Shown: one piece after another, positions 32,556 through 35,577 of the stretch
Layout: each line of letters begins with the position of its first letter
How positions within the stretch are numbered: the stretch's first letter is position 1
The notes under the pieces: model-generated
What the model was told of the DNA's origin: nothing
Database searches by the model: none
Seen by the model: the letters and a program-made list of their open reading frames with translations, nothing else
Position numbers and translations under genes: made by a program
DNA from: an uncultured bacterium
GTDB taxonomy: Bacteria > Cyanobacteriota > Vampirovibrionia > Gastranaerophilales > Gastranaerophilaceae
Assembly (NCBI GenBank): GCA_949300485.1
Contig: CASGEL010000015.1
Location: 1-35,577 of the forward strand
Length of the DNA stretch: 35,577 nucleotides
Reading direction: 5' to 3'

Positions 32556-33564
32556 GACTCCTAAAATATCTATAATTATTCCAGTGTATAATACTGGAAA
32601 GTATTTAAAAAAATGTTTAGATTCTCTTATTTGTCAAACTTATTCAAATATAGAAATAATCTGTGTGGATGACGGTTCATCGGATGATAGTTTGGATATA
32701 ATCTCTGAATATGAAAAATCGGATTCAAGAGTGTATTTGTATAAGCAAGATCATTTTGGTACGAGTGTTGCGAGAAATTTAGGAATAGACAAATCTACCG
32801 GAGAATATGTTTCATTCATAGATTCAGATGATTGGGTTTTTCTTACTTTATATCAAACATTTATTGAATATTTAGAAAGCTTTAATAAAACAGCTTCAGT
32901 AGCAGAGAGTTTGGATATTTATATGTTCAATGTATCTTCCTATATAAAAGGTGAGAATGATGTAGTTCCAAAGACTTTTTTCGATATGTCAGATTGGAAT
33001 AACCATAAAGAAAAATATGCTGTCCACACTTTTAACGATTGTATTCGTCCGTTTTCAAGAAATTTATCGGCTGCAAATAAGATTTACCGAAAAGAGTTTT
33101 TGAATGAGTATAGCATTAAATTTCCTGAGAATTTGAAATATGAAGATCAATATTTTGGAGTAAAAGCTTTTTTAAATGCAAAAACAATAATGATAAACCC
33201 GGATATATTTTACAGGTATCGCAATATGATCGATACATCTTCAACGCTTGAGGTTACACCAAGAGTATTTGACATATTTAAAATAGTTGATTTAGTAGAA
33301 GCGGAGATTTACAGACTTCATCAATATGAGTCGTATAAATATGCATTATTTCAATATAAGTTTAATTCTTTTTCTATGCATTATAATTGTTGTCCGGTGT
33401 CTTTACGCACTAAATATTTTGACGAAATGAAAAAGCGTTTATTGGAAGCCGAACGCAGAAATCTCAATCCTCAAATTTATACAAGGTTAAGAAATTACGG
33501 TATGTTTGAAAAGATAAAGCACTGTAGTTTTGAAGAATTTGAAAAATTTATAACAAATAGGTAA
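32548..33564 (+). CDS. Family 2 glycosyltransferase
   Basis: A 338-residue paralogue of the preceding protein: ISIIIPVYNTGKYLKKCLDS, NIEIICVDDGSSDDSLDII, HFGTSVARNLG, YVSFIDSDDWV, then AANKIYRKEFL and FPENLKYEDQYFG as the acceptor-side E-D motif. The C-terminal 100 residues are helical and basic and differ from the first enzyme, suggesting a different acceptor. The start overlaps the upstream gene by 8 bases, so the two are co-translated. No sugar-nucleotide synthesis or transport genes are nearby. Since a large surface protein follows, glycosylation of that protein is possible but unproven. Confidence 0.92.
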   Translation: MIKTPKISIIIPVYNTGKYLKKCLDSLICQTYSNIEIICVDDGSSDDSLDIISEYEKSDSRVYLYKQDHFGTSVARNLGIDKSTGEYVSFIDSDDWVFLTLYQTFIEYLESFNKTASVAESLDIYMFNVSSYIKGENDVVPKTFFDMSDWNNHKEKYAVHTFNDCIRPFSRNLSAANKIYRKEFLNEYSIKFPENLKYEDQYFGVKAFLNAKTIMINPDIFYRYRNMIDTSSTLEVTPRVFDIFKIVDLVEAEIYRLHQYESYKYALFQYKFNSFSMHYNCCPVSLRTKYFDEMKKRLLEAERRNLNPQIYTRLRNYGMFEKIKHCSFEEFEKFITNR

Positions 33565-33904
33565 TAAACTCAGATTTTTGTACTTACTTAATTCGCTCTG
33601 ATTTTTTAGTTATTCAGAATTTGTTTCAGAATCAAAAACCGTTATATATTGATTGACAAATAACGGTATTAATAATTTTGCTCTTATTAAGAAATGTAAA
33701 TTCTCTAAAACCTTTGAACGACAAAAGATTAATTCAAAAGAATTAATAAAATTTTAATAAACACTTGTATTTTTATAAAAACAGGATAATAATATATATA
33801 AATAGATCAAATGAATGATGCATAAATATTTGTAAATAATTACCCTAAAGTCAGTAGATAATGCATGCAATTTGTCGATAAGTAATATATCGATAAAGGT
33901 AAGT
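33565..33904. other. 340-base intergenic region before the Pmp-like gene
   Basis: No coding frame is convincing here. An 8-bp hairpin, ACCGTTAT (33638-33645) and ATAACGGT (33660-33667), lies 75 bases after the glycosyltransferase stop; its T-run is on the minus strand. A possible plus promoter is TTGTAT (33765-33770), 17 bases, AATAAT (33788-33793). Two direct copies of TCGATAA lie near 33877 and 33892. Confidence 0.4.
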
Positions 33905-33985
33905 ATGAGGATAAAGATTATGAATAATGAAAAACTTTCAAAACTCTCTCGTAGTTTGAACTTCGGGGGGGGGGTAACCCTATGA
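33905..33985 (+). CDS. Leader reading frame of the Pmp-like gene, off-frame by the poly-G tract
   Basis: Starts at ATG 33905 (AAGG upstream) or ATG 33920 (GAGG upstream), both in one frame: MRIKIMNNEKLSKLSRSLNF followed by three glycines, then V-T-L and TGA at 33983-33985. The TGA overlaps the ATG at 33982 (ATGA), a layout that permits re-initiation. With one G more, or two fewer, the leader would read straight through into the signal peptide, giving an extended basic N-region like those of autotransporter signal peptides. It is most likely the true 5' end of the gene rather than a separate peptide. Confidence 0.6.
   Translation: MRIKIMNNEKLSKLSRSLNFGGGVTL
33965..33974 (+). repeat. Homopolymer of ten G, putative phase-variation tract
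   Basis: Ten consecutive G in a genome segment of about one third G+C. It lies inside the 5' coding part of a surface protein gene. Homopolymers of this length slip during replication. 8 or 11 G give one continuous frame; 10 G (here) end the leader at TGA 33983; 9 or 12 G end it at the TAA just after the tract. Confidence 0.8.
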
Positions 33986-35577
33986 GAGGCTTAATAGCGG
34001 CATCTTTGGCTGCAATAAGTATGAGCGGAGCCTATGCGGATGAATTAGCTCCGGTACCATCTGCTGCGGAAGATAATCCACAGGGAACCCTTGACAAGCT
34101 TGCAGGTCAACAGATACCGAACTCCGATCCTGTACAGCAATATCCTGCAGAGGGCAGTGCATACTCATTGACTAAAGTTCAGGAAGGCGGAGAGAAGCCT
34201 GAGGGCGATAATATCATAACAAAATTCACATACGACACTGACTCAAAAACTATGACTCCTGTTTATTACAAACTGGAGTTGAAACAGACGACTTACGGAG
34301 AAGGTGATACTTCTCAAACCTTTACTCTAACAAGTGAACCTGTAAAAGGTGTAGAAATTACTGCTAAATATAATACTCCGACCGAGTCTCATGAGCGTAT
34401 CTCGATTTCAAATGGAGATACAACTTATGCTGAAACAGGAATAAATGCAGATTTTGTTGGGCAAGTTGCAAATGGTAATAGTTCTAATTTCGGCGGTGCT
34501 ATAAGTAACGAGGGTAAAATTGGCAATATAAACGGTAATTTTATAAATAATTATACGTATAGAACTAACGGAAGCTCCTATGGAGGTGCAATATATAGTC
34601 TTTATGGCGATTCCATTGGAGATATAACAGGAGATTTTATTGCTAATTATGCAACATCTTCAACTGGAAATGCCTACGGCGGGGCTATCTATAATAATGG
34701 AGGTTCCATTGGAGATATAACAGGAAATTTCATCGGTAACTACGCATCATCTGCTTCATATGCCAATGGCGGAGCTATTTATAATGATAATGGAACAATA
34801 GAAAATATCACAGGGTCTTTCATCGGCAACTATGCTTCCTCTTCTAGTAGTGCCTCCGGCGGAGCGATTTATAATAGTTCTTCTAATAGTACAATCGGAA
34901 ATATCACTGGTGATTTCATAGGCAACTACGTTTCTGCTTCTGGTTCTTCTGCCTACGGTGGAGCTATTTATAATGATGGTGGAACAATAGAAAATATAAC
35001 AGGTGATTTTATAGGAAACTATGCTTCAGCTTCTGATGTTTCCCGTGGCGGAGCGATTTATAATAGTTCTTCTAATAGTACAATCGGAAATATCACTGGT
35101 GACTTTATAGGTAACTACGCTTCAGCTTCTGATTATGATTCTGATTCTGGTGCGTATGGCGGAGCTATTTATAATTTTGGAGAAATAGGTGCTATCAAAG
35201 GCGATTTTATTGGTAACTATGCTCGTTCTATTACAGTAGATCCTTATTCTTCATATTATTCGGCTGGTGGCGCTGTATACAATGACAGTAAAATTGAGAG
35301 AATATTAGGATCTTTTATAGAAAATTATGCTGTTTCAGAAATAGCACCGGCCAACGGTGGCGCGATCTATAACACAGGTACAATTGGAGAGATCGAGGGA
35401 AGTTTTCTAAATAACTATGCCTCATCAGAAACAGGATCAAGTCGAGGCGGAGCAATCTACTCAACCGGTGATATAAAAATAGTATCCAAAGACGGCTATG
35501 AGAGCATATTCAGCGGAAACTACACAGAATCAAACGGAGTAAAAGATGATAACGCAATCTATATGGACAGTGTAGAT
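33982..35577 (+). CDS. Pmp-like surface/autotransporter protein with GGAI-FxxN repeats (3' end outside window)
   Basis: The frame is open for 532 codons to the window edge. It starts with a signal peptide (MRGLIAASLAAISMSGAYA|DEL) and a domain of about 150 residues (34040-34480), including a strand-rich stretch (YKLELKQTTYGEGDTSQTF). From 34492 follow eleven repeats of about 28-37 residues: GGAI[YS]N...IG.ITG.FI.NYA.... Each has one G-G-A-I/V and one F-I-x-N, the two signature tetrapeptides of chlamydial polymorphic membrane proteins, which fold as a right-handed beta-helix passenger. An autotransporter barrel would be expected beyond 35577. Repeats 5 and 7 (34858 and 35047) share near-identical DNA. 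G+C is visibly higher than in the flanking genes, suggesting transfer or different selection. Confidence 0.75.
   Translation, partial: MRGLIAASLAAISMSGAYADELAPVPSAAEDNPQGTLDKLAGQQIPNSDPVQQYPAEGSAYSLTKVQEGGEKPEGDNIITKFTYDTDSKTMTPVYYKLELKQTTYGEGDTSQTFTLTSEPVKGVEITAKYNTPTESHERISISNGDTTYAETGINADFVGQVANGNSSNFGGAISNEGKIGNINGNFINNYTYRTNGSSYGGAIYSLYGDSIGDITGDFIANYATSSTGNAYGGAIYNNGGSIGDITGNFIGNYASSASYANGGAIYNDNGTIENITGSFIGNYASSSSSASGGAIYNSSSNSTIGNITGDFIGNYVSASGSSAYGGAIYNDGGTIENITGDFIGNYASASDVSRGGAIYNSSSNSTIGNITGDFIGNYASASDYDSDSGAYGGAIYNFGEIGAIKGDFIGNYARSITVDPYSSYYSAGGAVYNDSKIERILGSFIENYAVSEIAPANGGAIYNTGTIGEIEGSFLNNYASSETGSSRGGAIYSTGDIKIVSKDGYESIFSGNYTESNGVKDDNAIYMDSVD
34492..35475 (+). repeat. Eleven GGAI/FxxN coding repeats
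   Basis: Repeat starts (GGA codons): about 34492, 34582, 34678, 34774, 34858, 34960, 35047, 35158, 35266, 35356 and 35449. Spacing is 84-111 bases, always a multiple of three. The variable loop between NYA and the next GGA is rich in Ser, Ala and Tyr. The units starting 34858 and 35047 share a long nearly identical stretch coding IYNSSSNSTIGNITGDFIGN, evidence of recent duplication. Confidence 0.85.

Follow-up and report, generated by a model that had tools for sequence, protein, structure and literature searches.

A poly-G leader tract before a PMP-like gene of Candidatus Gastranaerophilales: a probable phase-variation switch whose layout recurs on prepilin genes of related genomes

The DNA analysed here, which we call the window, is an entire contig of 35,577 bases from a 27-contig, 2.05-Mb genome (32% G+C) that belongs to Candidatus Gastranaerophilales, an order within the Cyanobacteriota/Melainabacteria group. 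The gene at the end of the window consists of a short leader frame, an uninterrupted run of ten G residues that starts 45 nt past the ATG at 33920, and a body frame that stays open for 532 codons up to the contig end. The contig ends inside the repeats of this gene, so the 3′ end of the gene is missing. The elements of the locus are as follows.

33875–33893, + strand: inverted repeat TCGATA-N7-TATCGA in the 5′ untranslated region, upstream of the leader; read from the sequence and kept in most homologues of the PMP-like gene
33907–33910, + strand: Shine–Dalgarno-like (SD) GAGG, 9 nt upstream of the ATG at 33920; read from the sequence, with GAGG kept before the start codon in most homologues
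33920–33964, + strand: leader of 15 codons, MNNEKLSKLSRSLNF, predicted to lengthen the signal peptide at its N-terminus when the gene is ON; its start aligns with the fused leaders of the genome's own paralogue and of homologues
33965–33974, + strand: G10 tract, at which slippage is proposed to switch the gene (ON with 8 or 11 G; OFF with 7, 9, 10, 12 or 13 G), from the sequence and in silico frames
33975–33977, + strand: TAA directly behind the tract, the leader stop at 9 or 12 G by in silico translation; a TAA at this place is frequent in relatives too
33982–33985, + strand: ATGA, in which the body ATG (33982–33984) overlaps the leader TGA (33983–33985) in the 10-G allele; read from the sequence, with the ATG-AGA codons present also in the own paralogue
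33982–35577, + strand: body, comprising a signal-peptide core, a non-repeat region and GGAI..FxxN repeats of about 30 amino acids (PMP-like passenger), ended by the contig edge; assigned by motif counts, PF02415, TIGR01376 and predicted strands

An Rfam search of positions 33500–34100, which span the inverted repeat, returned no match. The ten-G tract between a short leader and a signal-peptide open reading frame, on which an earlier note had built its reading of the locus, proved exact on direct reading. The tract exceeds the expectation from base composition (0.0007 G or C runs of at least ten in the window and 0.04 in the whole genome), as would be looked for in a poly-G contingency gene, and the second-longest G or C run within the window is 6. 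The genome holds three tracts of at least 9 G, and the other two are unrelated to the family of the window gene; these G9 tracts (L001, G000:C3:181530; L002, G000:C14:70476) do not stand before PMP-like or prepilin genes.

In silico translation of alleles with 7–13 G bore out the arithmetic of the earlier note, according to which the 62 nt between the ATG at 33920–33922 and the ATG at 33982–33984 mean that one added or two deleted G fuse the frames. Tracts of 8 or 11 G give an open leader–body fusion, MNNEKLSKLSRSLNFGGG(G)NPMRGLIAASLAAISMSGAYA..., and the fusion-spanning peptide of the 11-G allele contains SLNFGGGGNPMR. With 7, 10 or 13 G the leader terminates as ...VTL*, and with 9 or 12 G at the TAA; in all of these non-fusing alleles the leader stop lies within 4 codons of the tract. 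A further ATG at 33905 shares the frame of the ATG at 33920, so the choice between these two starts leaves the phase unchanged.

The body contains 11 GGA[ILVF] and 11 FxxN motifs spaced by about 30 residues, compared with 0.18 and 1.5 in shuffled sequences, and it matches both PF02415 (Chlam_PMP repeat; 34.4 bits against a cut-off of 20.6) and TIGR01376 (16.8 bits against a cut-off of 15), in agreement with the 'Pmp-like' label given to it earlier. Chlamydial Pmps are described as having GGA(I,L,V) and FxxN motifs in repeated copies as a hallmark (PMC4488443), and by its sequence the N-terminal part of the window protein carries both. The match to chlamydial Pmps is limited to these short repeats; on this sequence evidence we class the protein as PMP-like and not as a Pmp. 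A single-sequence structure model (mean pLDDT 69) predicted repetitive strands over body residues 158–530. A Foldseek search of the predicted body against the PDB gave nothing at E ≤ 0.001, and the model therefore contributes only the repetitive strands; a phmmer search of PDB sequences with a full-length homologue also found no match. Full-length homologues comprise 1,365–1,475 residues and have a long C-terminal region, where the autotransporter beta-barrel of a Pmp would be expected; it gave no Pfam match at E ≤ 1, and the window gene is cut by the contig edge.

Homologues of the window gene indicate which frame is functional. Those in G018, G036, G003 and G010, together with a paralogue in the window's own genome (G000:C14), have the same start codon and the same upstream region, TCGATA...TATCGATA, AGTATGAGGATGA or a near variant of it. 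In all of them leader and signal peptide form one continuous frame and there is no poly-G; one of these homologues, L089, has an interrupted G-run, GGGGATGGGATACCC, that lies in frame. The ATG at 33920 is thus likely to be the start codon of the window gene, judging from this conservation, and the fused frame appears to be the functional one. With the functional frame fixed by the homologues, the allele assembled with 10 G is probably OFF. The earlier note had held that homologues without a homopolymer would refute the switch. Such homologues exist, but they fix the functional frame and do not refute the switch, because other PMP-like genes of the lineage carry uninterrupted tracts of variable length at the same place. 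The own paralogue (L039, about 43,000–46,500 of G000:C14, minus strand) has a fused leader and a passenger divided between two overlapping frames, and may therefore be broken. When named genomes were scanned for the tract plus its right flank, the matches were mainly to Candidatus Gastranaerophilales bacterium Zag_111, Cyanobacteria bacterium SIG26, Gastranaerophilales bacterium BRZ_SG__bin122 and gut metagenome-assembled genomes (MAGs); one match is recorded as Muribaculaceae, a label contradicted by the kinship of that genome.

We found the layout SD–ATG–21 to 36 nt–G8 or longer in 115 of the 286 genomes surveyed for the order, spread over 26 of 50 genera. It usually precedes type IV prepilin genes and in some cases PMP-like genes. 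The earlier note had treated the tract as a device of a single gene, a view that was too narrow. One genome has up to 46 forward-strand matches to the SD–ATG–leader–G8+ pattern (other-strand counts are inflated by overlapping matches), and a reversed-pattern control was near zero across the 286 genomes. At 45 nt and with GAGG as its SD, the window's own leader falls outside this count. The survey took one genome per species and included many MAGs with contigs that stop at these tracts. Among genomes of the same genus the number of tracts of at least 9 G ranges from zero to dozens (31 in G001, 43 in G014), compared with about 0.25 expected from size and composition. Contiguous DNA from three other genera, 400 kb in all, has 20 tracts of at least 8 G, of which 18 lie in prepilin leaders, with the body frame open in each. 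The genes behind these leaders have the prepilin motif (TIGR02532). Prepilin genes number more than 100 each in G001 and G023 and 21 in the window's genome, the majority having ordinary short leaders; for the 1.9 Mb genomes G001 and G023 this is a very large repertoire of prepilin-like genes. Two other prepilin genes of the window's genome have decayed, out-of-frame tracts, and the window gene has the only intact leader tract found there. Since the closest homologues of the window gene also lack the tract, the switch system may be fading in this species.

Some poly-G sequences stand apart from the leaders described above. A second repeated poly-G sequence, GGGGGGGGGTAAATGTTGCTACCAAC, occurs with variants at L014, L034, L037, L058, L079 and L087, outside the leader layout and perhaps between genes. 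At L074 (G001:C2) a G10 tract joins two similar tandem genes, whose frames 11 G would fuse. Four stretches of viral contigs contain the tract motif; the open reading frames that follow it are either short or resemble neither prepilins nor PMP-like proteins. In Aliarcobacter vitoriensis, of an unrelated phylum, G9-TAACC lies inside the signal peptide of large genes (L210, L228, L239 and L248) that look TonB receptor-like by eye, an arrangement similar to the leaders described here.

Tract lengths of 7–13 G were observed across loci. Near-identical leaders bear unequal tracts in G207 (9, 10, 11 and 12 G) and in three paralogues of RGIG6412 (9, 10 and 12 G), a pattern that fits slippage. Against slippage, some genomes have very uniform lengths: in G007, 11 of 11 near-identical leaders stand at G11. 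Recent copying, selection for the OFF state or consensus calling could account for such uniformity. The genus set contains 91 distinct prepilin leaders with a tract. Of these, 7 are in phase; adding one G would bring 45 into phase, and removing one would do so for 39. Compared with one-third at random, 7 of 91 corresponds to a binomial P of about 1e-8, paralogues not being independent. Fewer prepilins are thus ON than free slippage predicts. Most genus-set loci were selected for tracts of at least 9 G, so in-phase alleles with 7 or 8 G are under-sampled. The in-phase counts are 4 of 18 in the contiguous set (P 0.45) and 4 of 11 among the PMP-like genes of the genus. Behind the tract, 81 of the 91 prepilin frames of the genus set extend for at least 200 codons, which indicates that out-of-phase genes are still maintained intact; such intact body frames would fit genes that are switched ON at intervals.

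Prepilin leaders may also form a hairpin. A complement of at least 6 nt to the SD lies behind the tract in 66 of 86 of them, compared with means of 29 in shuffles and 47 in cross-genome swaps, making a SD-masking hairpin possible; repetition within genomes arises through paralogy, so we treat this excess as a lead. Prepilin leaders in G001, G007, G009 and G035 have an SD (GGAGAG or GGAGAT) with its complement (CTCTCC or ATCTCCTT) about 11–37 nt past the tract.

We consider slippage-driven ON/OFF phase variation at the G tract the best explanation of the locus, with a probability of roughly 0.77. Replication slippage at the G-run would gain or lose a G. In alleles with 8 or 11 G, ribosomes starting at the ATG at 33920 would read on past the leader to make the signal peptide and the PMP-like passenger, and the product would presumably reach the surface; at other lengths they would meet the nearby leader stop, and the full protein from the ATG at 33920 would be absent. 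Changes in tract length would in this way connect or disconnect what seems to be the genuine start and the intact body frame, as expected of a contingency gene. The contingency device proposed in the earlier note thus gains weight from the frames, the fused conserved start and the recurrence in 115 of 286 genomes. As the same layout stands before many prepilin and some PMP-like genes in relatives, cells of one population would differ in the surface proteins they make; we infer slippage as the cause of this variation and OFF as a state that occurs in the cell. There is about an even chance that the loci form a lineage-wide system in the Gastranaerophilaceae, in which dozens of prepilin and PMP-like genes have a common poly-G leader layout and are mostly OFF, each cell expressing a small, changing subset.

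Translation could instead start at the ATG at 33982, with the tract in the 5′ untranslated region, where a G-run 7 nt upstream would resemble an SD, or the ATGA would permit restart, and tract length would tune the amount of protein. The signal-peptide core is kept from this ATG, and ATG and TGA overlap in the 10-G allele; yet the upstream start and GAGG are kept in homologues with fused leaders, and an ATG is missing at the corresponding place in most homologues and in most poly-G leaders of relatives, so that we regard this reading as unlikely, if still worth weighing. The same observations bear on the third expression state that had been proposed from the overlap, coupled re-initiation at 10 G. 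The ATG-AGA codons behind the overlap occur also in the own paralogue, where the fused leader makes restart unnecessary, and the poly-G leaders of relatives mostly have no such ATG; restart as an evolved third state is therefore unsupported. Judged from these comparisons, the overlap bears no sign of selection, and coupled restart through the ATGA at 10 G, with the G-run as a weak SD, is possible.

RNA polymerase slippage or ribosomal frameshifting at the G-run would yield a constant in-frame fraction from an OFF allele with the DNA unchanged, and would suit the finding that 84 of the 91 prepilin tracts in the genus are out of phase and their frames nonetheless open. Against it, DNA tract length varies among near-identical paralogous leaders, and the two out-of-phase states are near equal (45 and 39), even within one genome, whereas frameshifting in a fixed direction would make them differ; we rejected a fixed-direction programmed ribosomal frameshift, since 45 of 91 tracts need +1 G and 39 of 91 need −1 G, and we hold slippage or frameshifting during expression to be distinctly improbable, transcriptional slippage being the form that may still occur. 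Slightly less probable again is a decaying relic, that is, a pseudogene stuck OFF with the tract as a leftover: the decayed prepilin tracts of the same genome and the split passenger of the own paralogue speak for it, but the body reads through 532 codons without a stop, its repeats are regular and no other base breaks the G-run. Homopolymers are prone to error, and the contig terminates within the gene's repeats, so the true tract might be 8 or 11 G throughout and the gene simply ON; a wrong length would nevertheless leave the tract itself in place, and with the layout in 115 genomes and lengths of 7–13 observed, we give assembly or sequencing error the lowest probability among these readings.

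If phase variation is the right reading, these gut-dwelling, non-photosynthetic relatives of cyanobacteria possess a large phase-variable surface system, and an uncultured gut lineage on the cyanobacterial branch applies a known device to unusually many genes through one leader layout. This would imply strong pressure on these bacteria to vary their surface, whether from immunity, phages or attachment. The reading also carries a warning for annotation: with most assembled alleles out of frame, many such genes will have been cut short or missed by gene callers. Existing metagenome reads allow an immediate test of this reading.

Poly-G tracts are a well-known means of phase variation in Campylobacter, Neisseria and Bifidobacterium. 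A literature search, with subscription journals mostly outside its coverage and hence weak as evidence, found no report joining phase variation with Gastranaerophilales; 'Melainabacteria' with 'phase variation' gave one match, a survey of flagellin diversity. In the gut commensal Bifidobacterium breve UCC2003, replication slippage is reported for the sortase-dependent pili bbr_0113 and bbr_1889, with pili made once the frames are joined (PMC9187656). As in the window, each locus has a short upstream open reading frame with start signals, a G-tract and a body out of frame in the reference genome; B. breve, however, is Gram-positive and the evidence there is experimental and concerns sortase pili at two loci, whereas the Gastranaerophilales loci, dozens in some genomes, concern prepilins and PMP-like proteins and are known from sequence. 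Homopolymeric tracts in the pmp genes of Chlamydia pneumoniae are described as a hypothesized switch (PMC4514472) and likewise combine GGA(I,L,V)/FxxN repeat proteins with a homopolymer able to switch frame. Chlamydia belongs to another phylum, the likeness is one of repeat match, and in Gastranaerophilales most tracts are on prepilin genes; convergence on the poly-G device is likely. Campylobacter jejuni NCTC11168, with 29 poly-G/C loci of at least 7 repeats (PMC4965091), is also an AT-rich gut bacterium with many G-tracts of similar lengths, but most of the Gastranaerophilales tracts share a single leader layout, placed at the 5′ ends of paralogous genes. The autotransporters NalP and MspA of Neisseria meningitidis, reported as phase-variable (PMC3723659), similarly have homopolymeric tracts within the coding sequence of surface-protein genes, in an unrelated lineage and in other protein families. 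The parallels with B. breve, C. pneumoniae and C. jejuni thus point to a mechanism of a known kind; within the literature covered, the novelty lies in the lineage, in how many loci there are and in a single leader layout shared by two unrelated types of surface protein.
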